Source of the DNA: Kineosporia babensis | GTDB taxonomy: Bacteria > Actinomycetota > Actinomycetes > Actinomycetales > Kineosporiaceae | DNA length: 42,160 nt | Assembly: GCF_021129305.1 (NCBI RefSeq) | Contig: NZ_JAJOMB010000039.1 | Span: 1 to 42,160 of the forward strand | Direction of reading: 5' to 3' | In this document: in pieces, positions 7,622 to 27,950 of the stretch | Layout: each line of letters opens with the position of its first letter | Position numbering within the stretch: the first letter of the stretch is position 1 | The notes under the pieces: model-generated | What the model saw: only the letters and a program-made list of their open reading frames with translations | The model's database searches: none | Told to the model about the DNA's origin: nothing | Program-made: the position numbers and the translations under genes

Positions 7622-7789
7622 TCAGCCCGCCAGATCACAACGCCGGTAGCAGCTCAGTCCAGCAAGCATCAGCAGCAGCGACACCGTGATCATCACCAGA
7701 CCGCCGACCCAGTTCGTCGTTTCCCCGGGGGTACCGCAGCCAGGCGAAGGAGAGCTGCCCGAATTGCTGCGGCGCTCTTCCGGGCCGGC
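7622..7789 (-). other. In-frame transmembrane stretch just after the LysE-family stop codon
   Basis: After the exporter's TAA at 7790-7792 the same frame stays open for 55 codons to a TGA at 7622-7624. It contains a Ser/Gly/Pro linker, then GETTNWVGG and a clear helix LVMITVSLLLMLAGLSCY with basic residues after it. No start with a ribosome binding site precedes it; GTG and ATG codons occur only inside the helix. It may be a remnant of another membrane protein gene, or a coincidence. Confidence 0.3.
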
Positions 7790-8416
7790 TTAGCGAGCGG
7801 TCAGGGCCACACGGAGGCCGAGCGCGATGAGTACTCCACCGGTGACCCGCTCGATCGTGACCCGGACGCGCTCGCGGGACAGCACGCGTCCCAAATTTCC
7901 GACTGCCAGCGAGAAGATCCGCCACCACAGCACGGCCAGGAGCAGGAAGGCGACGGCCAGAGTGCCGGTGGTGGGCAGCGCTGCTTCGCCGGGTGAGACG
8001 AACTGGGGAATGAGAGTCAGGAAGATCAGCGCGATCTTGGGGTTGAGCAGGTTGCTGAGCAGGCCCTGCCGGAACGCCTGCCCCGGCCCCACCGCGGCCG
8101 CCGCAGCCGGTTCGACGTGCTGGTCCGGCTTCGTGCGGGCGTGCCACAACGCCGTCACGCCCAGGTAGATCAGGTAGGCGGCGCCGAGCAGCTTGATGAT
8201 CAGGAACGCGGTGGCCGACGCAGCCAGGATCGCGGCCAGCCCGATCGCCGAGGCGGCGGCGTACCCGGCGATGCCGGCGCAGCAACCCAGGCCCGTCCAC
8301 CAGGCCACACGGGAACCGCCGCGGACACCGTTGCGCAGAACCAGAGCCATGTCGGGCCCGGGGGTCAGCGTCAGGACCAGGGCTACAGCGAGAAAGGGCA
8401 CAAGCTGTTGCGGCAC
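7790..8416 (-). CDS. LysE/RhtB-family amino acid or metabolite exporter
   Basis: Inner-membrane exporter of the LysE/RhtB superfamily, which pumps out amino acids and related small molecules. The N-terminal signature LTLTPGPDMALVLRNGVRGG, the helix AAYLIYLGVTALWHAR and the conserved SNLLNPKIALIFLTLIPQF segment are all present, with six predicted helices. The frame is open far upstream, but homology begins at VPQQLVPFLAVAL, so I use GTG 8414-8416 (208 aa, the family's usual size). ATG 8450-8452 would add 12 residues. The substrate cannot be told. Confidence 0.88.
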   Translation of the reverse strand: MPQQLVPFLAVALVLTLTPGPDMALVLRNGVRGGSRVAWWTGLGCCAGIAGYAAASAIGLAAILAASATAFLIIKLLGAAYLIYLGVTALWHARTKPDQHVEPAAAAAVGPGQAFRQGLLSNLLNPKIALIFLTLIPQFVSPGEAALPTTGTLAVAFLLLAVLWWRIFSLAVGNLGRVLSRERVRVTIERVTGGVLIALGLRVALTAR

Positions 8417-8572
8417 CCGTGAATCATACGTGGGCGCCAGGACGTCAGACATATGCCAGGCAGGGAAGACGAGTGTGGTGGCATCCGTTCCCCGGGAAGG
8501 AAAAACCTGTGCCTGACGAGCGGACTCCAGGCTGGATCCGGGGAGATCCACGAGTTCCATCCCTCGCCTCAT

Positions 8573-8674
8573 CGAAGCCTGGCCGCTGAGCTGCGTGGCT
8601 CCGGTGCGCGGGTTGTGCTGGCCCACCCCGGTGCGACCGCCAACGCCTTCTTCGACGAAAGCAACCGCGTCCAT
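8573..8674 (+). pseudogene. Short-chain dehydrogenase fragment
   Basis: A plus-strand frame reads SLAAELRGSGARVVLAHPGA followed by TANAFFDES. This is the pattern of the SDR region after the catalytic Tyr/Lys helix (LAxELRGTGVxVxxxxPGxxxTxFFD). Nothing before or after it resembles an SDR, and there is no plausible start, so it is a leftover piece of a deleted gene. The enclosing gap 8453-8757 holds no other gene I can support. Confidence 0.5.
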
Positions 8675-8757: not shown

Positions 8758-9309
8758 TCAGCCGAAGAAGTGGGCCTGAATCCGGCCCGCCGCCTCGGCG
8801 GACGACTGCGTACCGGTGTCGACCTCCAGGTCGTACGCGATGCCCTCATGCACTGCGTCCGCCTGCTTGGCCGCCATCCCGGTCACCCGATCGCCGCGGA
8901 CCTGCTCGCGCGCCGCTGCGATCGACGGGGCGCACCGCACCCCGACCCATCCCACCGGTGCCTCAGCCAAGACGGCCTGCCATCGCTGCTGGCCACCTGG
9001 ACCGGAGACGAAGTTGTCCTCGATCAGCACCCGCGCCCCGGTCTGGACCATCCGGGCCACGCCGGCCATCCACCAGTCCTCGACCTGCTGGAAACCCGCG
9101 CCCACCACCACTTCGCCGTCTGCCGCGAAGCTCAGGGAATCCTCACTGAAGAACGAGGCCGGCAACGCGTCGATCAAAGTGTCCACGCCCAGACGCAGCC
9201 AGACCCCGTCCAGCGTCTCCTGCAGTTCCCTGGCCACCGACGTCTTACCTGAACTGGATCCACCGTTCAGGACCAGTACCCGGGGCCGGGATCGTTCGTG
9301 GTGCGGCAC
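8758..9309 (-). CDS. Chloramphenicol 3-O-phosphotransferase-like kinase
   Basis: 183 aa, close in length and motifs to the phosphotransferase of the chloramphenicol producer Streptomyces venezuelae (178 aa), which inactivates the drug by phosphorylating its primary hydroxyl. Seen here: P-loop NGGSSSGKTS (residues 15-24); GVDTLIDALP with Asp43 in the place of the catalytic Asp37 as I recall it; GWVGVRC; and GDRVTGMAAKQADAVHEG with YDLEVDT near the end. It is the last gene of the biosynthetic operon, 3 nt after the phosphatase stop, and reads from GTG. Inferred role: self-protection against, or protective-group chemistry on, the cluster's hydroxylated product. Confidence 0.88.
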   Translation of the reverse strand: MPHHERSRPRVLVLNGGSSSGKTSVARELQETLDGVWLRLGVDTLIDALPASFFSEDSLSFAADGEVVVGAGFQQVEDWWMAGVARMVQTGARVLIEDNFVSGPGGQQRWQAVLAEAPVGWVGVRCAPSIAAAREQVRGDRVTGMAAKQADAVHEGIAYDLEVDTGTQSSAEAAGRIQAHFFG

Positions 9310-9312
9310 CTT

Positions 9313-9957
9313 CTACACCACCGCTTTCGGTCGGGGTGCTTCCCATTGTGTACAAATAAGCTCGTTGTTCACGTGAGTAGCCTGCACCAGACCGGTGTTG
9401 CTGATCCACCGGTCATGAACGTTGCGCGTCGGGATGTTGACGCACAAGCAGGTCAGTGCCAGTTGCAGCAAGGTCCCGTGGCTCACGACCAGGATCCGCT
9501 GGCCCGGTCGCGCAGCCGCCGTGGCCCGTACGAAGTCCTGGAACCGCTCAACCGCGTCCCGCCCGCTCTCGGAGTGCTCAGCCGGACGGTGCCCAAGGTC
9601 GTCCTGGTCGAGCCAGCGGGACCAGGCGCTCCACAGTTGCCGGCGGGCCGCGTCGTCCGTGCGTCCTTCGAGCTCCCCCACCTCGAACTCGCGCAGCCGG
9701 TCATCGGCGAGGATCGCCAGTTCGCGGATTCGATCGGGGCCTGCGCCCCGCACGTGCTCAGCGGTCTCTCGCGCCCGCCGAAGCGGGCTGGATAAGATCA
9801 CGGACAGCCGTCCGAGCGCGCTCTTGCGGCCGGCGAGCCCGGCCTGCTGCACGCCCTCCAGACTGAGACCGGTACCGGGCCGGGCCGATGTCACCGTTCC
9901 GAGCAGGTTGCTCTGCGACTCGGCGTGCCGCATGAACACGAATTCAGTCTCGGCCAT
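9313..9957 (-). CDS. Histidine phosphatase family protein
   Basis: 214 aa. The phosphoglycerate-mutase-like catalytic motif FMRHAES (His11 the phospho-acceptor), SSPLRRARETAEHV, the acidic FEVGELEGR and the second catalytic His in ILVVSHGTLLQ are all present. It belongs to the broad branch that dephosphorylates small molecules. A GGAAGG ribosome binding site precedes the ATG, and the first 14 nt overlap the end of the ATP-grasp gene. Placed between the ligases and a drug-kinase homologue, it may remove a phosphate added during biosynthesis or resistance (inference). Confidence 0.85.
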   Translation of the reverse strand: MAETEFVFMRHAESQSNLLGTVTSARPGTGLSLEGVQQAGLAGRKSALGRLSVILSSPLRRARETAEHVRGAGPDRIRELAILADDRLREFEVGELEGRTDDAARRQLWSAWSRWLDQDDLGHRPAEHSESGRDAVERFQDFVRATAAARPGQRILVVSHGTLLQLALTCLCVNIPTRNVHDRWISNTGLVQATHVNNELICTQWEAPRPKAVV

Positions 9958-11236
9958 CAGACCCTTCCTCCAGCCGGCGGTATGACACCTTCACCTGTTG
10001 GGCCAGGCGGTGGACGGCCGCCGCGACGACTTCGGTGTCACCACCGGGAGCCGCCAGGACGAAGGCGGCGGCCGCATCCACTCCGACTCCCTGCCGGGCC
10101 AGGACCCGACCAGGTTCGAACACGTCTGCGGTAAGGACGAACTCGCCGGTGTCCGGAGGGGACTGCGCGTCGGTCACTACACAGGGCTCGTCCTCGGCCC
10201 GCGGGACGAGCAGCCATCCTGAGGATCCCGGCACGCGGTCGCACGCGAGCACTGGACCGTCGAGACGGCTCGGCTCCTGGCATTGCGCCAGGAACGCCTC
10301 AGCGGTCAGGTCCACTTCGAAGACCCTGCGCAGATGCGGCTGGATGTTGATCCCGCCGACGCGTACCGCTGCCTCGAGCATCCGGAAACCGGTCCCCTCG
10401 AAGAACGCCTCGATGTGAAAGGCGCTGTCCTCGACGCCCAGGCCGGTCAGGACCCGGCTGGCGAAGTCGAGGCCCATCCGGTGCGCGTCCCGGTCCATGA
10501 CGGCCGATCCCATCGGGATCCGGTCGCGGTGGTACAGCAGGTTGTCGCCGACGAACCGGCTGACGCTGAGGAACGTGACAACGCCGTCCCGGATCAGGCC
10601 GTCGAGATGGCAGATCGGCTTCTCGATGAACGGCTGAACTTCGAGTTCCTCGGTGAAACCGGCGGCGACCCCGGATCGGAACGCATCGACGGACGCAAAC
10701 TCAACGACCCCCAGGCTGGCCGCCCCGTCGCGCGGCTTGAGAATCACCCGACCCGCCCCGCACTCGTGCAACCAGTTCACCACTGCACCGGCATCGGTGC
10801 TCTCGTCGACCGGGAAGGTGCTCACCACCGGCGCGTGCGACTCGACCGCCCGGACCATGGCGACCTTGTCCCGGCACCGTTCAACCTGCTCGGGGCTCAT
10901 CCCCGCCAGGCCGAGACCCGAACGCAGTCGGGCGGCCGTGCGCAGGGTGTGCTCGTACAGCGCGACGACCTGCAGATCCTGCTGGTCGCAGTCGATCTCC
11001 CGGATCCAGGAGAGAATCTCGGGCAGATGGGCCTCGTACTCGTCCAGCGAAGCCCCGGCCAGGTCCAGTTCCAGGATCGACCCCAGCCCGGCCCTCTCCT
11101 CCGTCGACAGGCGCTGCCCACTGCGCGTGCTCATCACGACATGACATTCGAACTCGTCCAGCGGCAGGTACCAGCGATCCTCCGATCGCCACCCCACCAG
11201 GACCACCGGCCGTCGGCGCCGCGCCCCCGAGGACAT
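9944..11236 (-). CDS. ATP-grasp ligase (copy 1)
   Basis: About 430 aa. An N-terminal alpha/beta part with VALYEHTLRTAARLR and CRDKVAMVRAVE is followed by the ATP-grasp fold: nucleotide-binding GRVILKPRDGAASLGVVEF, the E-PF-IE segment (EVQPFIEKPICHLDG) and the metal-binding FRMLEAAVRVGG. Such enzymes activate a carboxylate as acyl phosphate and join it to an amine. It resembles the other ATP-grasp protein of the operon (12100-13416) along most of its length. The ATG at 11236 overlaps the dioxygenase stop (TGATG), so I prefer it to the GTG three codons upstream. Confidence 0.85.
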   Translation of the reverse strand: MSSGARRRRPVVLVGWRSEDRWYLPLDEFECHVVMSTRSGQRLSTEERAGLGSILELDLAGASLDEYEAHLPEILSWIREIDCDQQDLQVVALYEHTLRTAARLRSGLGLAGMSPEQVERCRDKVAMVRAVESHAPVVSTFPVDESTDAGAVVNWLHECGAGRVILKPRDGAASLGVVEFASVDAFRSGVAAGFTEELEVQPFIEKPICHLDGLIRDGVVTFLSVSRFVGDNLLYHRDRIPMGSAVMDRDAHRMGLDFASRVLTGLGVEDSAFHIEAFFEGTGFRMLEAAVRVGGINIQPHLRRVFEVDLTAEAFLAQCQEPSRLDGPVLACDRVPGSSGWLLVPRAEDEPCVVTDAQSPPDTGEFVLTADVFEPGRVLARQGVGVDAAAAFVLAAPGGDTEVVAAAVHRLAQQVKVSYRRLEEGSDGRD

Positions 11237-12090
11237 CAGTCCCACAGCCTCTCGCTGGACACGGTGACCCGCTCCATGCGGCGCTCATGCGGGGCGTAGT
11301 CCGACACCGCGTAGTGCTGAACGGCAAGGTTGTCCCACATCGTCACATCGCCCGCCTCCCAGGAGAACCGGCACTGGACCTCGGGGAGAGAGGCGCGCCG
11401 GTGGACCAGATCCATCAGTTCCAGAGACCTTTCGTCGGTCGTTCCGACGAAACGGCGTCCGGAGACCCGGTTCGAGAACAGCACCGGTGCCTTGGACACC
11501 GGGTGGGTCAGGACCAGCGGGTGATACTGGGCAGGGTACTTCTCACGCAGGGTGGCCAGCAGCTCCGGGTTCGAGGCGAACGACTTGCGGTAGATGTTCA
11601 TCCAGTCGTGCTCGACCTTGAGGCCCTGCAACTCCTCCCGGATCTCAGCCGGAAGGGTCAGGAAGGCCGCTGACATGTCGGCGAAGACGGTGTCACCGCC
11701 CACCGGCGGGATCTTCCGGGCGATCAGGACGGAGGCGTAGGTCGGGTACTGACGCCAGTTCAGGTCGCTGTGCCAGGCGTTCAGGTTCCCGGTGTGTTCG
11801 GCGGTGTGGTAGATACCGGAGACCTCGGGCTGTTCCCGATAGGGCTGGAACGGCGTGATTCCCTGCACCACTGGGTCCTTCTCCGAACCGAAGGGGTGGA
11901 TCTCCGGAGTGGCGATGGTGGCGGCCACCGCGACGTGATCGGCGGGTGAGAGGAACTGCCGCTTGAACTTGACCACCTTGTGGGCGGTGAGGAGCTGCCG
12001 CAGCACCTTGCCCAGGTCCGGATCCCCGGGGTCGAGGGTGAAGTCCTCCACCATCGCACCGAGGTAAGTACCGACGCGCGTGATCTTCAT
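11236..12090 (-). CDS. TauD/TfdA-like Fe(II)/2-oxoglutarate dioxygenase
   Basis: 284 aa, typical size. The iron-binding triad is visible: His107 and Asp109 in NAWHSDLNW, and His259 in WDNLAVQHYAV; the 2-oxoglutarate-binding Arg is probably Arg274 in RRMERVT. The preceding HTAEHTGN loop is also usual for this family. It hydroxylates, desaturates or cleaves an unactivated carbon; in this setting the likely substrate is an amino acid or the assembled intermediate. AGGA lies 5 nt before the ATG. It sits 9 nt after the second ATP-grasp gene and overlaps the next. Confidence 0.92.
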   Translation of the reverse strand: MKITRVGTYLGAMVEDFTLDPGDPDLGKVLRQLLTAHKVVKFKRQFLSPADHVAVAATIATPEIHPFGSEKDPVVQGITPFQPYREQPEVSGIYHTAEHTGNLNAWHSDLNWRQYPTYASVLIARKIPPVGGDTVFADMSAAFLTLPAEIREELQGLKVEHDWMNIYRKSFASNPELLATLREKYPAQYHPLVLTHPVSKAPVLFSNRVSGRRFVGTTDERSLELMDLVHRRASLPEVQCRFSWEAGDVTMWDNLAVQHYAVSDYAPHERRMERVTVSSERLWD

Positions 12091-12099
12091 AGTGATCCT

Positions 12100-13416
12100 C
12101 TATCCGATCTCTTCTGCGAGCGGGACGCTCGTGGCTGGTACTGACTGCAGGTCGACCCGGTAGGTCGCCAGGACCTGGTGGATGTCGCGGCGCACGGTCT
12201 CCTCGTCGGCGCCGGCGAGAATGAAGACTCCGAGGTGGGGAAAGGGTCGAAACTCGTCGGTGACAACGTCCCCCGCTTCAGGCAGCCGTGCGCTAACGAT
12301 TCCTGGTACGTCCTCGGGCGGGTGCACCGCGGTCACGGTGAACTGGCCAGAGGCTTTCATCGGGGCGAGCAGCCAGGCTGAGCAGGCATGCTCGGGACGC
12401 AACGGAGTCTGCTCCCGGGCCGGCGGTACGAGGCTGGGGTCGAGAACGTTCGCCCGATAGGATTCGTCAAGGAGGTCCACCCCGAAGATCTCCTGCAGGT
12501 GCGGTACCACCGCGGCGCCGCCGTGACGGCAGGCGATCTCCAGGAAGATCCACTCACCTGCGCTGCGGAACAGCTCCAGATGGATGACCGCGTCGGCTAT
12601 CCCCAGCGCGCTCACGCACCGGTCGGCCACCTCGCGCGCACCGGCGACGAGTTCGCCGTCTGTGACCGTGATCGACGCCAGCGGCAGGCGGTGCACAGAG
12701 CTGTCGTGGCAGGAGTTCAGGTATCGGGAGAGGGAGTGGAAGGAGATGGTTGCGTCGCGGACGACGGCATCCAGATGGAAGATCTCGCCCTCGACGAATT
12801 CCTCGACTTCGTAACGGTTCAGCTCGGCCGCGGGAATCCGGGAGATTGCCGCCAGGCCGGCTGTCGGGTTGTCCACGATCTGCACCCCGACGGCACCGCC
12901 CTCACTCTTGGGCTTGATCACCCACCGGCCCGGTCGGCTGTTGAGCCACGACCGGATCCGCTCCCCGGTGGCACCGGCCAGATCCAGCCACTGCGGGACC
13001 GCGACGCCCGCCTGCGCGACCAGGTGCTTCATCCGCACCTTGTCGCGGCAGTTGAGCGCGGTGTCGACGCTCGTCCCGGGCAGGTTGAAGCGTTCGCGCA
13101 GCCGGGCCGCCGGAACCACGGTGTGTTCGTAAAGTCCCACCACAGCCTGAGGAGCACCGAGTTGCTCGGCAATCTTCTCGGCGCCCGCCTGGAACTCGGG
13201 ATAGAAGTCGTCGTAGTCGTTGTTGTTCAGGCGGTGAGGCACGTCGACCGGCTGCAGACGAGCCAGGCGGAGGCTGATGCCGGGTGCCGTCTCGTCGGCG
13301 GCCCGCTGGTGCAGCAGAACGCTCAGGAGATCTCTGGACACGTCGACGTGATCGAGGATCTCCGGGAAGAACCCCACGTGCATCACGTGCCGGGTGCCTT
13401 CCCCGGGACCGGTCAT
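12100..13416 (-). CDS. ATP-grasp ligase (copy 2)
   Basis: 438 aa. Same plan as the ligase at 9944-11236: VVGLYEHTVVPAARLRERF, CRDKVRMKHLV, then WVIKPKSEGGAVGVQ, the EVEEFVEGEIFHLDAVV segment and FLEIACRHGGAAVVPHLQ with the Glu/Arg pair that binds Mg-ATP. The two are paralogues rather than recent duplicates, as many residues differ. Family role: amide-bond formation through an acyl phosphate. Its ATG overlaps the stop of the CmlA-like gene (ATGA). The second copy suggests two separate amide or ester bonds in the product. Confidence 0.85.
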   Translation of the reverse strand: MTGPGEGTRHVMHVGFFPEILDHVDVSRDLLSVLLHQRAADETAPGISLRLARLQPVDVPHRLNNNDYDDFYPEFQAGAEKIAEQLGAPQAVVGLYEHTVVPAARLRERFNLPGTSVDTALNCRDKVRMKHLVAQAGVAVPQWLDLAGATGERIRSWLNSRPGRWVIKPKSEGGAVGVQIVDNPTAGLAAISRIPAAELNRYEVEEFVEGEIFHLDAVVRDATISFHSLSRYLNSCHDSSVHRLPLASITVTDGELVAGAREVADRCVSALGIADAVIHLELFRSAGEWIFLEIACRHGGAAVVPHLQEIFGVDLLDESYRANVLDPSLVPPAREQTPLRPEHACSAWLLAPMKASGQFTVTAVHPPEDVPGIVSARLPEAGDVVTDEFRPFPHLGVFILAGADEETVRRDIHQVLATYRVDLQSVPATSVPLAEEIG

Positions 13417-15008
13417 CGTTCGCCCAGGATCTCTTCGTACCGGAAGAGCCGCTTACTGCGAATTCCTCTCTGCTGCGCGTAGGCGACCAGCTTGTCGCTC
13501 TCCACCATCGCCGGATGGCTCTCGTCGTACTCGACGCACATCACCGCACCCAGCCACGGCTCCTGGCCCATGGCGTAGACAAAGACCTCGTCGGCCCCGA
13601 CCGCCTCGACGATCTCGCGGGCCTGGTCGAAGTTGGAACCGCGCAGGCGCCGGCTCTGGTCGAAGGCGCGTTCCAGCCTCGTCGGGAAGAACGGCCCGTA
13701 CAGCCAGCTCACCGGGGCGCCGACGCATTCCATCCCGATGAACACGGTGTCGATCCGGCCGATGATCCGTGCGATCCGGTCGTACATCCCCGGGTTGATG
13801 TTCGTGGCATCGGCGGCGAAGGCCATCGACCGGTCACCGGCCTGCAGATGGAAACAGGACTTGGTCTGGATTCTCAGGTCGCCGTGCTCACCCACGAAGG
13901 GCAGCGCGGTCACCCGCATGCTGCCGACCTGGTGGGACTGCAGGTCTCGCAGACCTCGTACGCGAAAGCCCAGACGCTCCAGAATCAACGGGAGATTCGG
14001 ATCGATGGTGGAGCCGTTGCTCGATTCGGAGACCACTACTTCCTTCACCTTGTGGCGGATCCGCAGCAGGGTCTCCAGGAGCATGTGGTCCTGGTGGTTG
14101 TGCGAGATCAGCAGGCAGTCAATGGTGGCCGGCAGCTTCTCGAACGTCACCCGCTCGTCATCCACCTCGTCGTAGCCGGAGTAGCTCAGCACGGGATCGA
14201 CCAAGATGGTGGTGCCCTGATGCTCGACCAGCACGCAGGCGTGCCCGGCGTACTGCACGCGGGTCGTCGCCGACGCGGGCCGGGCTCGCACCTCCCCCTG
14301 GTCCGGGGTGAAATACGATCTCCAGCGTTTCTGATGTTCCGCGGTGAGACCGAACCCAACCGCCAGTGCGTTGAGTTCCTCCTCGGACAGTCGCCCGGCG
14401 AACATGGTGTCCAGCAGCGGGGACGAAAGGTCCGTGTCCACCACCAGTTGGGTGTCGTCGAACTCCAGCAGCGGTGTGGTCAGGGCGAAGTCGCGAGCGT
14501 CCTGCTCGACGAACGAGAACCGGACGTGCTGGCGGATCGCGTCACCGAACTCGCTGGCGTAGACCAGGGGCTCGATGAAACGGTAGTCCGCGGTGTGGTT
14601 GTCCCGTGCGTAGAACAATTCGACCAGGCCCCGCAGATTCGCGGGCAACTGCTTGTAGGCCTCGACCAGGCTGCCACCGGTGAAACGGGGCAGGATGTTG
14701 GTCTCAAGCTCGGTGACGGACTCTGCCATCCGGTCGAGAGGGCCGGCGCCGCCCGCATCGGCCCACCACTTGGCGATGACCTCGTAACGGGATCCCAGTC
14801 CGTTGACGAACGGCCCGCCCTGCATGCGCGGGTTGCGCAGCGCCGTCGCGTGTGTTTCGGGAGAGGCCAGGTAGCCCTCGACGATTGAGCGATAGTGGTT
14901 GCGCCGCAACATCGCCGCACTGTGCGGGGCCATCAGGTACGACCAGGCGTACCATCCGTCGATCCCGGGTTCCACGATCACATCCGGGCGGAGCGAGTAG
15001 GTCGTCAC
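13413..15008 (-). CDS. CmlA-like di-iron beta-hydroxylase with metallo-beta-lactamase fold
   Basis: 531 aa, almost exactly the length of CmlA (about 532), which beta-hydroxylates p-aminophenylalanine while bound to the CmlP carrier domain in chloramphenicol synthesis. An N-terminal helical region of about 245 residues is followed by a lactamase fold: YAGHACVLVEHQGTTILVDP, LLISHNHQDHM (His303, His305, Asp307, His308), FVGEHGDL (Glu374) and FAADATN (Asp400). The spacing matches the CmlA iron ligands I remember (H305, H307, D309, H310, E377, D403) shifted by two or three. The counterpart of the last His ligand I could not place. GTG start with AAGGAG 5 nt upstream; 4-nt overlap with the methyltransferase. 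Confidence 0.82.
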   Translation of the reverse strand: MTTYSLRPDVIVEPGIDGWYAWSYLMAPHSAAMLRRNHYRSIVEGYLASPETHATALRNPRMQGGPFVNGLGSRYEVIAKWWADAGGAGPLDRMAESVTELETNILPRFTGGSLVEAYKQLPANLRGLVELFYARDNHTADYRFIEPLVYASEFGDAIRQHVRFSFVEQDARDFALTTPLLEFDDTQLVVDTDLSSPLLDTMFAGRLSEEELNALAVGFGLTAEHQKRWRSYFTPDQGEVRARPASATTRVQYAGHACVLVEHQGTTILVDPVLSYSGYDEVDDERVTFEKLPATIDCLLISHNHQDHMLLETLLRIRHKVKEVVVSESSNGSTIDPNLPLILERLGFRVRGLRDLQSHQVGSMRVTALPFVGEHGDLRIQTKSCFHLQAGDRSMAFAADATNINPGMYDRIARIIGRIDTVFIGMECVGAPVSWLYGPFFPTRLERAFDQSRRLRGSNFDQAREIVEAVGADEVFVYAMGQEPWLGAVMCVEYDESHPAMVESDKLVAYAQQRGIRSKRLFRYEEILGER

Positions 15009-16012
15009 TGGGACTCCTTGGTTGCGATGTAGTACTGGAAGACGTCAGTGCCCCGCCGTCCGATGGTCTGGTTCATGACTAGCCCGTGCGCGCCCAGGTC
15101 CTCCTGATCGATCAGCACGGGAGTGTGGCCGAAAGCCACGAAGAGACCACCCGGTTTCAGTGTCCGGGCCAGCGGCCCGGCGATCAGGCGCGCCTCTTCG
15201 CTGGTGACGACCTCACTGTTGAGGAAACGAGCAAAGACGACGTCGACCGTCCCGGGTTCGCAGACCGGTGAGCGCGCGTCGCCGCAGTGCACGGAGTCCA
15301 GCCGTGGTTTCGCGTAGGAGACCATCTGAGCGCTGAGGTCCTGGCCGACCGTGGTCACCGCGCACTGGGCCGCGGAGGCGAACTCGGCGAGGAACTGCCC
15401 TGTCGAGCAGGCGGGGTCAAAAGCGACGATACGCTGGTCTTTCGGCCAGTGTCCAGCGAATCGTTCCGCCGTGTAGGCCCGCAGGTGCAGTTCCCCGGTG
15501 CTGAGGAAGTCGGCGCGGTCCTCGTTGACGAACCAGCCCTCGGGCGGGCTACCGGTCTCCCGCCCGGCGCCGTCCATCTTGGGATAGGGATGAACGATCT
15601 CGTCGAGATGCGACAGTCCCTCGAACGCCGCCTCACGTTCGGCCCGTGACGCCATCCGCGCACGCACTCTCACGCCTTGCTCCGACACCCGCAGGCTCTC
15701 CAGCCGGCCGAGAAGGTTGTGCCAGCGCACCCTGCTGCAGAACACGCCGGGGATGCCGTCGCTCAGCACATAGTCGGAGACGGTCTTCAGTCCCAGCCAA
15801 GTCTCACCACCGACTCGAACATGGAAGATCCGCTCGGGATGGGCGTTCCAGGGTTCCACCCACTCCATGCTCGCGCCGACGTCCCAGGGACCCGAGACGC
15901 TCTCCAGCCGCCGGCGCAGGGCCTGCTCCGGGATCAGGTCGTCCTCGGTCACGGAAACGCCGCGATCCCAGCAGTCCTCACGCCGGAACGGCTCGAAATC
16001 CACCTGAGTCAT
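15005..16012 (-). CDS. Class I SAM-dependent methyltransferase
   Basis: 335 aa. The C-terminal half has the Rossmann methyltransferase pattern: motif I VAFDPACSTGQFL (about 196-208), an acidic GQDLS, a CGDAR step, VDVVFARFLNSEVV and the LKPGGLFVAFGH strand. The first 180 residues form a separate domain I do not recognise (EPWNAHPERIFHVRVGGETW and others); it may be a substrate-binding cap. The long open frame extends upstream, but ATG 16010-16012 has GGAG 7 nt before it and overlaps the NRPS stop (ATGA). The methyl acceptor (O, N or C) is not predictable. Confidence 0.8.
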   Translation of the reverse strand: MTQVDFEPFRREDCWDRGVSVTEDDLIPEQALRRRLESVSGPWDVGASMEWVEPWNAHPERIFHVRVGGETWLGLKTVSDYVLSDGIPGVFCSRVRWHNLLGRLESLRVSEQGVRVRARMASRAEREAAFEGLSHLDEIVHPYPKMDGAGRETGSPPEGWFVNEDRADFLSTGELHLRAYTAERFAGHWPKDQRIVAFDPACSTGQFLAEFASAAQCAVTTVGQDLSAQMVSYAKPRLDSVHCGDARSPVCEPGTVDVVFARFLNSEVVTSEEARLIAGPLARTLKPGGLFVAFGHTPVLIDQEDLGAHGLVMNQTIGRRGTDVFQYYIATKESQ

Positions 16013-18753
16013 CGTGCTGCTCCGATCGTCCGCAACGCGGCCGAGATCAGGGCGACGCCGTCGGGCTCGCCGTCTTCTGGTTGTCCGATCATGGGGATTA
16101 CCTGCCGGACGCGGGTCAGCATCTCCGGTGCCATCACGCCTGCCGCCTCGACCCGGGCCAGCCAGGCGGCCGCCAGCAAGGTCACCAGCCGGCCGGGGGC
16201 CAGGCCCGCCAGCGATTGGGCCGTGACGACCGCTTCGCTGACAAAGCGTTCTGTGCCGGGGCTCTCGAGGGCTTCCAGGACCGCGTCGGTCACCGTGTCG
16301 ACATGACACAGCGGGAAAGCTCCCGTTGTTTCGGGCAGAGCGCCTACTGCCAGGGCGGCCCGGACGACGCCCAAGAAGACGTTGTTCTCCAGGAATGCCT
16401 GGTCGGCAGGCCGATGCCCGTAGACCAGTGGGAGCCGCAGGACGGTGACGTCCAGCCCGAACCGGCGCGCCCGGTGCAGTCCTTCCTCGCAGATCAGCTT
16501 GGCCTGGGAGTACGGATCCTGGCAGGCATCCCATGCCTCCCGGCCCCACTTCCGGAAACTGGGGCCGCTGGATGTGGCCGACAGGAAGACGAACCGCCGG
16601 GCGCCCTGCTCGCAAGCGGCCCGGATCAGGTCCAGGGTCGGGATGATGTTTCGAGTGTGCTGGGCCGACAATGGAAGTGAATGGTTCACGGTGTAACCGC
16701 TGTGGATGACATCACGGCCCGCCAGCAGGTCGCCACCGGCCACGTCGGTCATGGCCACGGCCGGGACCTGCCCGGGTCCGCCGAATCGGCGCGTGTGCTC
16801 GACGGGCAACGAGGCCGGGTCGGACGAAGTGAGTGCCACGACGTCGCGCTCAGCGCTCAGCAGGCGGTTCAGCAGGTGCCCGCCGATGAAGCCTCGGGCC
16901 CCGGTGAGCACCACCCCGGTGGCCGACGCCGTTGTGCTGGGCCGGGTGGCCGTGGTGAGACCCGCCTCGAATTCCTCGAGCAGCCGGGTGGACAGAAGGA
17001 AGCTGTCTTCGGCCTCGTCCTGCGCCGACGGCGCTGGTGGGCCAGGAATCGCGCGGCTGTCGGGGGCCTGAGTCAGCTCGTGCAGTGTGTGGACGAAATC
17101 GTTGCTCACGAAGTCGAAATCCAGTTTGGTGAAGATGCTCTCGACGAGTTCGTCGCCGTACACCTTGCCCAGCTCCACCTGCAGGGTGACGAAGGTGAAG
17201 GAGTCCGCACCCTGGTCGAAGATCGTCCGGTCGGCCTCAGGAGTGAAGCCCAGCACGCCCTTGGCAATCAGCTCGACCTGCGCGACCAAGGTCTGCGCGG
17301 GGGGCGGCTCGTCTGCCGGAGCGGCTTCGAGCAGCTGCTCGATGGCCTCACGGTCCAGTTTTCCGCTGGCCTGGAGCGGCACCTGGGCCAGCTGCCGGAC
17401 ATCGTTCGGCACTTCCCACGGCGCCAGGACCCGGCGCAGCTTCTCCAGGAGATCCGAGGCGAGGGTGTCCTGCTCGCAGACCAGCACCACCTCCTCGTCA
17501 CGCCGCACGCACCAGGCGGCCCGGCCCAGTACGGTGCTCCACCGGTTCTCCAGCTCCGAGCGGGATATCCGGTGCCCGAGCCGCTTGAACTGGTCGTCCT
17601 GACGGCCGTGGAAGACGACCGCCCCGTCCTCGCCCAGGGTGACGACGTCCCCCGTGCGGTAGGTGCGCAGGCCGGTGTGTTCACCGAACGCCTCACGGGC
17701 GCGACCGTGATAGCCGAGGGCGACGCCAGGGCCGCACAGCACCAGTTCGCCGGTACCCTGTTCGCTCAACCCGCCGCCCGGAGCTGTCTCATCGAGGACG
17801 TACAGGCTGAAGCCGGGCAGCGGATACCCCACCGAACGGGAGAACTTCTTCAGTTCGCCGATCGTGGCGCAGACAGTGGCCTCGGTCGGCCCGTAGGCGT
17901 TGAGAACCCGACCGTGCGACTGTGCGAGCAGGAATTCGTTCTCCTCCAGTGCCTCGCCGACGAAGACCATCGTGCGGATGTTGCGCTGGGCCGAGGCTCC
18001 GAGCAGCCGGTACACGGTCGGCGGCAGGGTGGCGAAGTCCACGGGGTTCTTGCGCAGGAAGGCGGTGACGCTTGCCAGCCAGCCGCCGTCGGTGACGGGA
18101 GGCAAGCACAAGGTGGCGCCCGCGTGCAGGGCGACCATAATTTCGGCGATCGAGGCGTCGAAGGCGAGCGACGCGAACTGCAGCAGGCGGTCACCGGGAC
18201 CGATCTCGAGCGCCTCGCTCTGTCCCCGGCACAGGTGCAGCAGGCCTTCGTGGCCGACCTCGACCGGCTTCGGTTCGCCGGTGGAGCCCGAGGTCAGGAT
18301 CGAGTAGGCGACGGCGAGACCGGGGTCGGGCAGCAGTCCGGCCGCCGCATCGGCTGCGGTCTCGGCCAGCTCGACGGCCCCCAGGCGACGCCATTCGGTC
18401 CGGGCCGGGACCTCGCCCCGATCCTGCCAGCGCTCGTCGCAGGCCAGCACGAGCCCGCCGCCCAGTTCCTCGATGATCGAGTCGATTCGGGCGCCGGGTA
18501 GCTCGGGATTGAGCGGCGTGTACGTCAGGCCTGATCGCAGCACCGCCAGCGCCGCAGTCGTGGCCTCGATGCTGTGGTGTCCCAGGACGTACACCCGCCC
18601 GTTGCCGGGGGCAGCCTGCTGGAGCCGGGAAGCCAGGCGGATCGTCGCCCGGTCGAGTTCCGCGTAACTGATGCCGGGTCCTTCACCGCTGAACAGGGCG
18701 GTGCGATCGGGCCAGGCCGCGAAGGCCGCGGCCAGGATTTCTGGGGCTCTCAC
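16009..18753 (-). CDS. NRPS module with adenylation, carrier and thioester-reductase domains (A-T-R)
   Basis: 914 aa from GTG 18751-18753. Adenylation domain: TSGSTGEPKP (154-163), FDASIAEIMVAL, NAYGPTEATVCAT (285-297), YRTGDVV, and SGKLDR with the catalytic Lys near 465. Carrier: FDQGADSFTF with the phosphopantetheine Ser near 518. Reductase: NAD(P)-binding LTGARGFIGGH (about 616-626) and the YSQAK catalytic Tyr/Lys (748, 752). Hand alignment to GrsA gives the pocket code D-A-A-T-V-V-A-V-C, which fits an aromatic amino acid. CmlP of the chloramphenicol pathway has the same order as I recall. Predicted action: load an aryl amino acid, present it to the CmlA-like hydroxylase, release it as aldehyde or alcohol. 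There is no condensation domain in cis. Confidence 0.9.
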   Translation of the reverse strand: MRAPEILAAAFAAWPDRTALFSGEGPGISYAELDRATIRLASRLQQAAPGNGRVYVLGHHSIEATTAALAVLRSGLTYTPLNPELPGARIDSIIEELGGGLVLACDERWQDRGEVPARTEWRRLGAVELAETAADAAAGLLPDPGLAVAYSILTSGSTGEPKPVEVGHEGLLHLCRGQSEALEIGPGDRLLQFASLAFDASIAEIMVALHAGATLCLPPVTDGGWLASVTAFLRKNPVDFATLPPTVYRLLGASAQRNIRTMVFVGEALEENEFLLAQSHGRVLNAYGPTEATVCATIGELKKFSRSVGYPLPGFSLYVLDETAPGGGLSEQGTGELVLCGPGVALGYHGRAREAFGEHTGLRTYRTGDVVTLGEDGAVVFHGRQDDQFKRLGHRISRSELENRWSTVLGRAAWCVRRDEEVVLVCEQDTLASDLLEKLRRVLAPWEVPNDVRQLAQVPLQASGKLDREAIEQLLEAAPADEPPPAQTLVAQVELIAKGVLGFTPEADRTIFDQGADSFTFVTLQVELGKVYGDELVESIFTKLDFDFVSNDFVHTLHELTQAPDSRAIPGPPAPSAQDEAEDSFLLSTRLLEEFEAGLTTATRPSTTASATGVVLTGARGFIGGHLLNRLLSAERDVVALTSSDPASLPVEHTRRFGGPGQVPAVAMTDVAGGDLLAGRDVIHSGYTVNHSLPLSAQHTRNIIPTLDLIRAACEQGARRFVFLSATSSGPSFRKWGREAWDACQDPYSQAKLICEEGLHRARRFGLDVTVLRLPLVYGHRPADQAFLENNVFLGVVRAALAVGALPETTGAFPLCHVDTVTDAVLEALESPGTERFVSEAVVTAQSLAGLAPGRLVTLLAAAWLARVEAAGVMAPEMLTRVRQVIPMIGQPEDGEPDGVALISAALRTIGAAR

Positions 18754-19865
18754 GCGATGAACCTTTCTATCCGGTGCGTCAGATCCCCTGCCTCGTGAGC
18801 ATTCAGGAATCTGCGCTTGTACTGGACGCGGAGCTCGCCGTCGGCGGCCGGAGACCGGTCCCACAGGAACCGGATGTCGTCCAGGCTGCGACGGCTGTAG
18901 GTGGGCAGGTACTCGAAGGGAGAATCCGGAACGCGGTAGAACGAGGTGTCGCTCAGGACGAGGCGAGGGCTTCGGGACTGGGCGAGTCTGCGCGCGAGGG
19001 CCGGAAAATCGCCCTCGGAGTAGCGGCCCAGGGACTCGGCCCGGGTTCGCGCTGCGCTGACCGTGGCGCCCAGATCGCCGACGGACGTCGGGATCCGGAT
19101 GCTCTTGATCTCGGCGAAATATCCTCGCCGGTCGCGAAAACGCCTTCTGGTGTATGGATAGGTCCAGATCTGATCAGGGCCGACGATTGGCTCCACCGCG
19201 CGGGCGAGCGCCGCCAGCAGGGTGTCGAACCGGTGCTCCGCGCCCACCTGCGCAACGGCCGTGGCGACTTCGCCCAAGCCGCCCAGGCCTGGGCGCACGG
19301 GATCGGGGACTTCGCCCAGCATCGCGCCCACCGCAGCTTCATCAGCCCCCGGGACGGCGTACAGCTCGAGCGCGGAGGCCGACTCGAAGGTGTACATCCC
19401 TAGGGCCGCCCCGTCACCGGCGAGAAACCGCGTCGCCGCTACGAACAGGTCCCTCGCATCCACGGCGTCGGCGATCAGATGGCTGACCTTAAGAGTCAGT
19501 ACTCCGTCTCCGTTCGCGGCATCCACATAGTGCGCGCGGAACACGGTGCTCAGATCGAGTGGGACGCTTCCCCGGGATGCTTGGGCCGTCGCTGCCGGAG
19601 AGACCAGGTGATCGGCGGCTTCGATGGTGATGTCGACCCCGATGTCTGACTGTTCGCAGTCCAACACCCAGGCCAGGGCCCGGTCCACCGCGGCGGCCCG
19701 GAGCCAGGCCTCGATGCGGGCCAGCTGGGTCCTGAGCGTCTCCCGGGGTCCAGCCGGGACCCGCCAGGAGACCGAGGGGGTGGTGTCGCTGTCCAGCCCT
19801 AACCGGGTGACAAGGTCAGCCACACGTCGTAAGTACGGCAACTCGGCCCTTACCCGATTCATCAT
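18750..19865 (-). CDS. Stand-alone condensation-domain-like acyltransferase
   Basis: About 371 aa. The segment LKVSHLIADAVDARDLFVAA resembles the catalytic HHxxxDG motif of condensation domains: the second His and the Asp are kept, the first His is Ser and the Gly is Ala. Further pieces, such as the YRVPDSPFEYLPTYSRRS stretch, fit a chloramphenicol-acetyltransferase-like fold but are divergent. Such proteins move an acyl or peptidyl group to an amine or alcohol. It starts at ATGATG overlapping the MFS stop and overlaps the NRPS start (GTGA). It may acylate the NRPS-bound or released amino alcohol. Confidence 0.6.
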   Translation of the reverse strand: MMNRVRAELPYLRRVADLVTRLGLDSDTTPSVSWRVPAGPRETLRTQLARIEAWLRAAAVDRALAWVLDCEQSDIGVDITIEAADHLVSPAATAQASRGSVPLDLSTVFRAHYVDAANGDGVLTLKVSHLIADAVDARDLFVAATRFLAGDGAALGMYTFESASALELYAVPGADEAAVGAMLGEVPDPVRPGLGGLGEVATAVAQVGAEHRFDTLLAALARAVEPIVGPDQIWTYPYTRRRFRDRRGYFAEIKSIRIPTSVGDLGATVSAARTRAESLGRYSEGDFPALARRLAQSRSPRLVLSDTSFYRVPDSPFEYLPTYSRRSLDDIRFLWDRSPAADGELRVQYKRRFLNAHEAGDLTHRIERFIA

Positions 19866-21112
19866 GCGGCCCCGAGCATCTGGCCACGGCGCAGCGACAC
19901 CAGCGTCGTGACGACCATGCCGAGGCACACCACACTGACCGCGGCGACCGCCAGCTGCGCAGGCACCCGATCGCCCACCAGGCCCAGGTAGGCGCCGGCG
20001 ACCGGGTAGGCGGCAGTAGTCCCGGTCATGATCACCGATGCCTGCAGCGAAAAGTGCCGAGGATCGAGCAGCTGGTTGCGGACAACGCGGGACCAGATGG
20101 TGAAAGCGACCATGGGACCTATGGATACGGCGAACACCACCACCGCCAGAACCGGGGTGTTCGTCGTGGCCAGGGCAAGGGGCGCGCCGGCAGTGGTGAG
20201 AGCCGCGGCTATGCCGAGCTTGGCGACCAGATGATGGCGGTGCAGCCAGGCCGCTGATCGGAAGTAGAGCAGAGAGATCAGCGCCGCCGAGCCGTATCCC
20301 AACGGCAACAGCACATCCGCGTGCCCACCTGCTGAGGTCAGAGCCGGAAGTGCCGTGTAGAGGACCCCATAGGTGAGATTGACCGCGAACAGCAGCACGA
20401 TGACCGTTCTGGCCAGAGGATTGCGGGCAAGCTGGACCGCGGCCCGGAGACGGTCGGGCCAGCTCGGCTCTGCCTCGCCCGGTTCGCTCGCGGCCGGCAG
20501 CTGCATCGACGGGCCCAGCAAGGCCGCTACCGCGTAGACCGCTGCGCACAGAGCGAACAGCCAGGGAAGTCCGTGCCCGGACAGTGCCAGGCCGCCCACA
20601 ACGGGCATCGCCAGGAGCATGGTGTACTGCAGCGTCTGGAAATACGAGTACGCCGTCGCCACGCCTTCGCCGGAGAATCCGGAGACGTAGCGCTCGAAAA
20701 TGATGTAGGCGAAGATGTTTGCGACACCCAGCACCGACCCCGCCAGAACCAGCGGTACAACCCCGAGACCAAGCGTGGTCGAGAGTCCCACCAGGGCACA
20801 CACCACAGCCCGGCAGATGTTCGTGACCCTCAGCAAGCGTGGCCCGGACGACCGATCGACGACGGCCCCGACCAAGGGCAGCAACACAATGACCGGGAGC
20901 CATTCGGCAACATAGGCCAGCCCGCTGCTGCTCAGGCTTCCGGTCTGCCGGTAGACCGCTACCGGAACGACGAAGAGCAGCAGCCGCTCGATCGCGGTCT
21001 GAACCCCGAGATAGAAGGCAGTACCCCGCGGCAGACGTTCACCGGAGACAGAATCCACTGAATCGGGTTCCACATCATGTTTTTCCCCGGTCCCGGAATC
21101 GACATACTTCAC
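19862..21112 (-). CDS. MFS-family exporter
   Basis: About 416 aa from GTG 21110-21112, which has TGAGGG 7 nt upstream; the frame is open to a TTG at 21154. Roughly eleven to twelve hydrophobic helices in two halves, with a polar central loop (about LPAASEPGEAEPSWPDRL). The loop LVGAVVDRSSGPRLLRVTN matches the MFS motif between helices 2 and 3. It looks most like the EntS/MFS_3 branch. It is the first gene of the ten-gene operon, and the natural role is secretion of, and resistance to, the product. Confidence 0.85.
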   Translation of the reverse strand: MKYVDSGTGEKHDVEPDSVDSVSGERLPRGTAFYLGVQTAIERLLLFVVPVAVYRQTGSLSSSGLAYVAEWLPVIVLLPLVGAVVDRSSGPRLLRVTNICRAVVCALVGLSTTLGLGVVPLVLAGSVLGVANIFAYIIFERYVSGFSGEGVATAYSYFQTLQYTMLLAMPVVGGLALSGHGLPWLFALCAAVYAVAALLGPSMQLPAASEPGEAEPSWPDRLRAAVQLARNPLARTVIVLLFAVNLTYGVLYTALPALTSAGGHADVLLPLGYGSAALISLLYFRSAAWLHRHHLVAKLGIAAALTTAGAPLALATTNTPVLAVVVFAVSIGPMVAFTIWSRVVRNQLLDPRHFSLQASVIMTGTTAAYPVAGAYLGLVGDRVPAQLAVAAVSVVCLGMVVTTLVSLRRGQMLGAA

Positions 21113-27092: not shown

Positions 27093-27950
27093 TCAGAGCG
27101 AGGTCCAGACGTGATCGTCGGCCGGGTCGCAGGGGTAGAGGGTGAGGCTCTGCCCGGCCACGGTGTTGCCCTTGCCGTGGTTCGACACGTCCAGGCAGTG
27201 CCCGCTCTTGACGTGGACCAGGTAGAAGCCGTTCGGGCGCGGCTCCTTGCGGAACATCATGTTCTCCTGGTCGCCCGCCACACACGGGTCGACGGCCACC
27301 CGGGTCCGGGCCTTGACGTCTCCGGTCCCCAGAAAATTGAAGCAGAGCTTGGCTTTGACGCTGCGGATCGCAAATTGCCCGTCGATCCGCAGCAACTCGA
27401 ACATCTGGTTGTCGGCAACCCCGGAGCGGCACTGCCCCTGCGACACCAGGGCGCCGGCCTTGACCGAACCGGCTCCGGGCAGATCCGCGCAGAAGCCGGT
27501 TTCGGCGTTCTTGAACTGCACCGGGCCCTGAACTGTCACCGGATCCGGATCCGGTGCAGGCTCTGCCGATTCGGGAGTTCCCGAGGGCTCCACCCCATCG
27601 ACGCCCTCCACCGAATCAGGGACGGCGTAGGTCCCCTTCACCGGTGCCTCGCCCAACTCCACCGAGGCCTCACCCCTCACCGGAGCGGGTCCTTCATCGG
27701 CGTTGGCCTCCACTAGCTTCTCCGTCGCCACGTCGGAGGACGAGGACGGCGAAGGAGACGGTGCATCAACGGGCGCGGCATCACCGGCAACCGGCTCGAC
27801 CTCGGCTTCGGCCTCCACGCTGGGCAGAGAACCGGTGACCACCCCGGCGCCCAGCCCCAGCACGGCCACGCCCGCGATCACCGCACATCTGCGTGCCAGG
27901 GTGGTGCGGCCGGGCCGGTCGTCGGTCTGATCGTCAGGCCTCAAGTCCAC
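27093..27950 (-). CDS. Membrane-anchored or secreted ricin-B-like lectin domain protein
   Basis: 285 aa. A short basic cytoplasmic start (DQTDDRPGRTTLARR), one hydrophobic helix (about 21-40), a long acidic Ser/Pro/Glu linker (about 45-140), then a beta-trefoil-like domain with three repeats: GFCADLPGAGSV...DNQMFEL, LCFNFLGTGDV...QENMMFR, and HCLDVSNHGKG ending in CDPADDHVWTSL. The paired Cys and the (Q/D)xxW-like repeats are those of ricin B lectins that bind sugars. No enzyme domain is attached. Probably a cell-surface carbohydrate-binding protein. The GTG start is provisional. Confidence 0.75.
   Translation of the reverse strand: MDLRPDDQTDDRPGRTTLARRCAVIAGVAVLGLGAGVVTGSLPSVEAEAEVEPVAGDAAPVDAPSPSPSSSSDVATEKLVEANADEGPAPVRGEASVELGEAPVKGTYAVPDSVEGVDGVEPSGTPESAEPAPDPDPVTVQGPVQFKNAETGFCADLPGAGSVKAGALVSQGQCRSGVADNQMFELLRIDGQFAIRSVKAKLCFNFLGTGDVKARTRVAVDPCVAGDQENMMFRKEPRPNGFYLVHVKSGHCLDVSNHGKGNTVAGQSLTLYPCDPADDHVWTSL

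Follow-up and report, generated by a model that had tools for sequence, protein, structure and literature searches.

To our knowledge, chloramphenicol has so far seemed an isolated invention. The order of its biosynthetic genes in Streptomyces venezuelae is given in a table of PMC4249514, and the gene list of that source enters CmlH as an amidase and as an essential gene. Here we analyse a stretch of 42,160 nucleotides from the actinomycete Kineosporia babensis (contig NZ_JAJOMB010000039.1; hereafter the window), in which ten minus-strand genes, all read in one direction from 21112 to 8758, join relatives of the chloramphenicol proteins CmlH, CmlP and CmlA to an S-adenosylmethionine (SAM)-dependent transferase, two ATP-grasp ligases, a TauD-type oxygenase, a histidine phosphatase, a chloramphenicol phosphotransferase (CPT)-like kinase and an exporter of the major facilitator superfamily (MFS). 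With little more than even confidence, we lean towards the reading that this operon makes an amphenicol-like small molecule, presumably an antibiotic, from tyrosine and not from p-aminophenylalanine, with a homoseryl ether at the para position.

Chloramphenicol-type core enzymes without the precursor genes

Only CmlA, CmlP and CmlH, among 16 chloramphenicol-cluster proteins, were best matches of open reading frames (ORFs) of the window, and the order CmlH-CmlP-CmlA is common to the window and to the chloramphenicol locus L134, whose gene order equals the S. venezuelae order tabulated in PMC4249514. A CmlA tree with 20 outgroup sequences unites the window, ten related loci described below and four chloramphenicol-type sequences in one clade (support 100/100), and the same joint clade (100/100) is recovered with four outgroup sequences for the nonribosomal peptide synthetases (NRPSs) of adenylation-thiolation-reductase (A-T-R) type to which CmlP belongs. 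In both trees, then, the window falls within the chloramphenicol-type clade and not outside these groups, the position that the initial annotation had named as refuting its reading. The CmlA-like hydroxylase combines the Pfam domains CmlA_N (2e-50) and Lactamase_B_3 (1e-13) and retains HxHxDH together with the equivalents of E377 and D403, which we take to be the metal ligands of CmlA; it is predicted to hydroxylate a carrier-bound aryl amino acid. The A-T-R protein likewise keeps its carrier serine and reductase motifs.

No ORF of the window matched the precursor genes CmlB/C/D/E or CmlS/K/M/J, nor was there any match to the CmlI N-oxygenase or the CmlS halogenase, these two having been sought in the window and not in the rest of the genome; as CmlB/C/D are missing from it, we do not count the window among the chloramphenicol clusters. 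Altogether, the picture drawn by the initial annotation, that of chloramphenicol logic without precursor genes, halogenase or amine N-oxygenase, holds for the window. In the draft genome (99.27% complete), CmlC and CmlD find weak partial matches only (E 9e-5 and 3e-4) and CmlB nine matches, the best at 50% identity and, in the one neighbourhood examined, surrounded by unrelated genes. The CmlB-like gene at C28 was considered as a hidden precursor locus and rejected on account of its unrelated neighbours. CmlC gave no match at E<=0.001 in the genomes of three out of four relatives and a weak one in the fourth.

The condensation-like protein named in the initial annotation proved to be a CmlH homologue by alignment (about 30% identity, with the K..H...D motif preserved), while a Pfam search gave no match. 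Its AlphaFold model, built from a five-sequence input, is weak (mean predicted local distance difference test, pLDDT, 53.9). Foldseek returned 279 matches for it at E<=0.001 (best E 6.6e-12), of which the best 50 are condensation-type domains, multidomain chains holding one, or CmnI, which we take to be a condensation-type protein; the TM-scores are about 0.3, so that the overall shape of the model is not to be trusted. Sequence matches to the condensation and PCP-E chains 6cgo and 5isw were weak (E about 0.2), an unrelated DEAD-box chain scoring E 0.03, and profile comparison by hhalign gave 3.7% and 9% with a control at 0.8%. Taken together, the CmlH homology and the condensation-type matches of the model suggest that CmlH itself may be a condensation-type acyltransferase. 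If true, this would give CmlH a role in N-acylation, where the gene list of PMC4249514 has an amidase only.

Adenylation code and SAM-dependent transferase

The code of the A domain in the window reads DAATVVAVCK, and its first nine residues are DAATVAAVC in 9/9 relatives, the final K having been read for L003 and L010 only. Chloramphenicol-type enzymes carry DASMECAVCK (L133-L135, Streptomyces-type) or DASMQSAVCK (Rhodococcus). The window has T and V in place of their M278 and E/Q299, residues that plausibly touch an amino group. A code of tyrosine type is DASTVAAVCK, and gramicidin synthetase uses DAWTIAAICK for phenylalanine; a search of the open literature for the tyrosine and cluster code strings found neither. 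These comparisons point to tyrosine or phenylalanine as the likely substrate.

Isonocardicin synthase puts a 3-amino-3-carboxypropyl group on the phenol of nocardicin. This enzyme (PDB 8zhu) is the only PDB match of the SAM-dependent transferase at E<=0.01 (E 3e-31, residues 57-331 of 335), the next ones having E 0.04 and worse, and the motifs ACSTG, GQDLS, R-LN-VV and GH[TS]P are common to the transferase and to three isonocardicin-synthase-like proteins encoded beside NRPS genes. Similarity over most of the length together with these motifs places the transferase in the isonocardicin synthase family, which makes phenol aminocarboxypropylation a likelier activity than methylation. The function label of methyltransferase given initially is thus probably wrong, and we rejected it as the best label. 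A structure model of the transferase reached a pLDDT of 66.4.

In the window the gene is flanked by A-T-R and CmlA, as it is in 8/9 related loci with an A-T-R gene, and it precedes CmlA in L008, where the stretch examined has no A-T-R; L010 shows between A-T-R and CmlA no more than a match of some 41 residues (E 3e-5). Relatives of the transferase occur in 15/390 genomes of the family of G398, where one of eight loci examined belongs to a cluster of the present kind (L188, the contig of L011), four stand alone and three lie beside NRPS genes. Across 396 sampled genomes of the phylum, the transferase turned up in its own genome only. Three plasmid records matched it, and the one examined (L165, Pantoea eucrina, 7749-8588) encodes a protein matching its C-terminal half at 30%; the gene just before it is YcaO-like, and the two may form a peptide-modifying pair.

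A family of related clusters in actinobacteria

The biosynthetic cluster, which the initial annotation had called new and of which no description was found in the open literature, does not stand alone: it is a deep-lying member of a family seen in four other genera. Species genomes were scanned with hydroxylase patterns as exact short peptide matches, the best 80 of 330 confirmed relatives were kept, and homologues of the remaining genes were scored at E<=1e-6. Among these 80, ten loci (L003-L012) from Streptomyces, Microbispora, Lentzea and Actinokineospora have a CmlA 52-55% identical to that of the window, against 37-43% for the other 70, which were covered over at most 10 kb, often less, on each side. 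In the ten loci we find ATP-grasp (10/10), CPT (10/10), transferase (9/10), TauD (9/10), A-T-R (9/10) and CmlH-like (4/10) genes, whereas transferase, TauD and CPT occur in 0/70 of the others and a weak ATP-grasp match in 1/70, which argues that the co-occurrence goes beyond chance. The family is undercounted, because the scan demands exact peptides, retains 80 relatives out of 330 and missed the S. venezuelae cluster itself. Gene calls in the related loci came from a simple caller, which missed a HAD phosphatase gene of L010 later found by tblastn.

Wider searches, scoring the first three candidates per genome, suggest that the cluster family looks rare. In the genus of G396 (Streptomyces, the source of L003), five of 392 genomes carry a hydroxylase at 54-55%, two being members of the present family (one of them the search centre) and three chloramphenicol clusters, and among 396 genomes of the order of the window a related hydroxylase was present in its own genome only. 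Twenty plasmid records matched the hydroxylase, of which two were examined (L001, L002). The open literature, which leaves out most subscription papers and MIBiG, held no account of this apparently uncharacterised family.

In L008 the CmlH-like gene lies about 8 kb or more from CmlA. In five relatives without a CmlH-like gene, A-T-R is preceded by an additional NRPS (of A-T-C type according to Pfam in L003, by similarity in the others), and in L006 the contig ends upstream of A-T-R. L003 (with L141 for its contig), L005, L009, L011 and L012 also carry, along with a further NRPS, arginine-tailoring genes (VioC/GntD-like and argininosuccinate-synthase-like, with MppQ/VioD-like in some), scanned as families in L003 and L005 and assigned by similarity elsewhere, which suggests products with a capreomycidine- or enduracididine-like part. 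Such a part is not expected for the product of the window, as no VioC-like gene was matched in its genome at E<=0.001. A conserved protein of 184-189 amino acids was also noticed in five loci (L003, 15665-16234), its L003 copy being without Pfam or NCBIfam match.

Ligases, kinase and phosphatases

Ligase a is, from its similarity, the counterpart of the ligase found in the related loci, and ligase b, which groups with it in a tree (87/97, both on long branches), is probably a diverged paralogue. A test of ATP-grasp motifs matched only 1/19 proteins and was not used.

The kinase belongs to the Pfam CPT family. All genes named in the initial annotation are present on the minus strand where it had placed them, the pair formed by this kinase and the histidine phosphatase (9957-9313) being what it overlooked. 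Comparable kinase/phosphatase pairs are known from hygromycin A and A201A. The histidine phosphatase has no homologue in the ten related loci; a HAD phosphatase, unrelated to His_Phos_1, is instead encoded in L004, L006, L007, L010 and the contig of L003 (63-88% identical to that of L004), adjoining CPT in three of them. That the window and 5/10 relatives fill this place with phosphatases of unrelated families argues that dephosphorylation matters. Two further observations concern CPT: L007 holds two CPT-like genes in one cluster (13709-14242 and 17537-18082), and the genome of the window contains fragments of a second CPT-like gene (G000:C12:642976-643213; L148, L151), 62% identical over residues 121-183.

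Proposed pathway and alternatives

The pathway that we propose from the observed gene content, gene order, homology, clade membership, adenylation code and CmlC/CmlD result is conditional in its substrate, in each reaction and in the order of its steps. The A domain of the CmlP-like enzyme would load L-tyrosine onto its carrier domain, where the CmlA-like enzyme would hydroxylate the beta carbon; the CmlH-like protein may acylate the amine, and the reductase domain would free the chain as an aldehyde or primary alcohol, leaving, we infer, a beta-hydroxylated aryl amino-alcohol core. The isonocardicin-synthase-like enzyme would transfer 3-amino-3-carboxypropyl from SAM to the phenol, giving a homoseryl ether at the para position, where chloramphenicol has its nitro group. 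On this new amino-acid handle the ATP-grasp ligases (two in the window, one counterpart in the relatives) could form amides, and the TauD oxygenase would oxidise one of these parts. Inside the cell the CPT-like kinase may phosphorylate the primary alcohol, the phosphatase would remove the phosphate, and the MFS protein would export the product.

Several points weigh against this pathway. V301 of the window code is an alanine in the relatives, and no paper with the code strings came up in the literature search. Stand-alone relatives of the transferase, 46-49% identical to it, lie outside amphenicol-type clusters in four genomes (L181-L184; an internal stop is reported in one), so that homology does not fix its substrate. 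Moreover, ATP-grasp and CPT persist in L010, where the transferase is reduced to a short remnant and TauD was not found, and the ligase therefore need not act on a homoseryl group. The kinase, called a close CPT homologue in the initial annotation, is a homologue indeed, but the adjective was somewhat strong: it is 49% identical to the S. venezuelae enzyme, compared with 56-64% for the CPTs of the relatives, and stays under the NCBIfam equivalog cut-off (212.5 versus 250 bits). The examined stretches of the other 5/10 relatives show no phosphatase of either kind, and we know of no enzyme activity for any member of the family.

The alternatives change one element or another of this scheme. As initially proposed, the SAM-dependent protein could simply methylate an O or N atom, and the product would be an aryl amino alcohol that is methylated and extended by amide bonds, in keeping with its Pfam label (Methyltransf_25/11) and with the existence of stand-alone relatives without assigned function; we hold this to be rather improbable, given that the isonocardicin synthase match includes the N-terminal region and that the four motifs recur in the three proteins beside NRPS genes. 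On the model of leupeptin-type pathways, the ATP-grasp enzymes might instead build a short peptide whose hydroxylated Phe or Tyr end is reduced by A-T-R, yielding a peptide-aldehyde or -alcohol enzyme inhibitor, with CPT and phosphatase acting on an intermediate and not in resistance. The joint occurrence of A-T-R and ATP-grasp genes would fit such an inhibitor, as would the five relatives with a further NRPS and arginine-tailoring genes, but the core enzymes are specifically those of the chloramphenicol lineage and a CPT relative as near to the S. venezuelae enzyme as described above is found in 10/10 loci, which leaves this a distinctly improbable reading. Finally, we give almost no credence to an ordinary amphenicol made from p-aminophenylalanine supplied from elsewhere: the aminodeoxychorismate synthase resembling CmlB (50%) would favour it, yet such a synthase is required for folate anyway and its gene lies among unrelated ones, CmlC and CmlD find only weak partial matches in the draft genome, and M278 and E/Q299 are replaced in the code.

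Possible origin of the family and of chloramphenicol

In the CmlA tree with 20 outgroups, family and chloramphenicol sequences exclude the window (100/99), and forcing the window to group with the family or with chloramphenicol gave approximately unbiased test values (p-AU) of 0.0345 and 0.036, respectively. With 11 outgroups (9/20 dropped, in a selection made after the first tree) the joint clade was recovered again and the topology was unchanged (99/97; p-AU 0.006 and 0.007), while the A-T-R tree does not resolve the branching order of window, family and chloramphenicol. The chloramphenicol core is nearer to the family (CmlA 57-61%, CmlP 44-48%) than that of the window is (52-55% and 38-40%). 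Provided that the rooted CmlA tree is correct, the simplest reading of the cassette of transferase, ATP-grasp, TauD and CPT, which has the same order in window and family, is that it is ancestral and was lost towards chloramphenicol.

We advance a tentative scenario, possible though in our judgement short of probable, in which chloramphenicol arose from a tyrosine-based, homoseryl-ether, ATP-grasp-extended amphenicol pathway, with the window as its deepest branch in the present data. The chloramphenicol lineage would have lost transferase, ligase and TauD and gained the genes for p-aminophenylalanine and N-oxygenation, thus swapping the para substituent, and CPT, once in the cluster, would have become an unlinked resistance gene. 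In the L134 genome the CPT gene, whose sequence on visual comparison agrees with that of the solved enzyme, is 3.3 Mb away from the cluster, and G725 and G745, which also carry chloramphenicol clusters, have no CPT at E<=0.001.

Some results speak against this ancestry. In several trees the window sits on a long branch, and it does not join the family in those of the transferase and CPT, the CPT trees being poorly supported (0 and 1 starred branches; the first without the S. venezuelae CPT, the second without L150, and with L147 in the set being the same gene as that of L010). These ungrouped trees, long branch included, would also suit an exchange of the cassette between the lineage of the window and the Streptomyces family, in which case its sharing would say nothing about the ancestor of chloramphenicol. 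Module transfer is likewise suggested by L010, where CmlM/J/K/S at 72-77% stand beside CmlH/P/A at 45-59%. However, the distance of the cassette from the family (ligase a 35-39%, transferase 42-46%, CPT 43-53%, TauD 51-57%) is much like that of the core, and the order is kept, and we consider the exchange unlikely, if still worth bearing in mind. Should the ancestral scenario be true, it would explain the origin of chloramphenicol and of its phosphotransferase.

Operon and genomic setting

The genes (Table 1) overlap by 4-14 bases or are separated by 3-9, figures that depend on our selection of gene starts, and this tight spacing makes the ten-gene stretch look like one operon. The window is an entire contig (42160 bases) of a draft genome that comprises 89 contigs and 9.4 Mb, and genes past its ends may thus be missing. 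Outside the operon, a protein with a Ricin-B-lectin domain is encoded at 27093-27950.

Table 1. Genes of the operon in the order of transcription, with positions in the window.
Feature	Position	Strand	Evidence
MFS exporter, first operon gene	19862..21112	-	Pfam MFS_1 4.2e-12; 34-36% to MFS proteins 1-2 genes from CPT in L004, L006, L007
CmlH-like stand-alone protein of putative condensation fold, predicted N-acyltransferase	18750..19865	-	30% to CmlH of L134; K..H...D motif
CmlP-like A-T-R NRPS, predicted reductive release	16009..18753	-	A domain, T-domain Ser, reductase motifs TGARGFIG and YSQAK; code DAATVVAVCK
SAM-dependent transferase, predicted phenol O-(3-amino-3-carboxypropyl)transferase	15005..16012	-	Isonocardicin synthase 8zhu match
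CmlA-like di-iron beta-hydroxylase	13413..15008	-	PDB CmlA 4jo0 E 1.2e-177
ATP-grasp amide ligase a	12100..13416	-	35-39% to ligase of 10/10 related loci; PDB 4wd3 1.4e-11
TauD-type Fe/2-oxoglutarate oxygenase	11236..12090	-	Pfam TauD 5.1e-48; 51-57% to TauD in 9/10 related loci
ATP-grasp ligase b	9944..11245	-	No Pfam match; PDB 4wd3 4.3e-6
Histidine phosphatase, predicted partner of CPT kinase	9313..9957	-	Pfam His_Phos_1 4.9e-34
Chloramphenicol phosphotransferase-like kinase, predicted self-protection	8758..9309	-	Pfam CPT 1.1e-48; PDB CPT 1grq, 1qhx E 8.7e-48

Comparison with known systems

Two components of the operon have described counterparts in other pathways. The likeness to isonocardicin synthase of nocardicin biosynthesis lies in residues 57-331 and the shared motifs, although the gene in the window sits in an amphenicol-type operon without a beta-lactam NRPS. 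The ligases share the fold and a weak sequence likeness with BacD-type L-amino acid ligases (PDB 4wd3), too remote for their substrates to be predicted.

Among whole clusters, that of Streptomyces sp. ODS25 (L010/L152) resembles the window in the family core, ATP-grasp and CPT and differs by its additional dichloroacetyl genes CmlM/J/K/S and by a transferase remnant, so that it appears as a chimera; neither CmlB/C/D/I nor TauD was found in the stretches examined. The Rhodococcus qingshengii plasmid pCP209 (L001) has a CmlH-, CmlP- and CmlA-like core like that of the window, but with its own precursor genes and a di-iron (AurF-type) oxygenase, and the stretch examined gave no match to ATP-grasp, TauD, the transferase or CPT. 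The S. venezuelae cml cluster (L134) shares with the window the same three core genes in the same order, as well as a CPT relative in the genome, and its CmlR-like regulator, so labelled by position in L134, recurs in 5/10 relatives of the window. In contrast with cml, the window is without CmlB/C/D/E, CmlI and CmlS/K/M/J, has another A-domain code and adds the isonocardicin-synthase-like transferase, two ATP-grasp ligases, TauD and the phosphatase. The cluster shares its core enzymes with the chloramphenicol-type pathway and seems to differ from it in the starting amino acid and the decoration of the ring; if true, a family with the chloramphenicol core, another precursor, a kinase/phosphatase pair and an unexpected enzyme for modifying the phenol would offer new amphenicol-like scaffolds to test.

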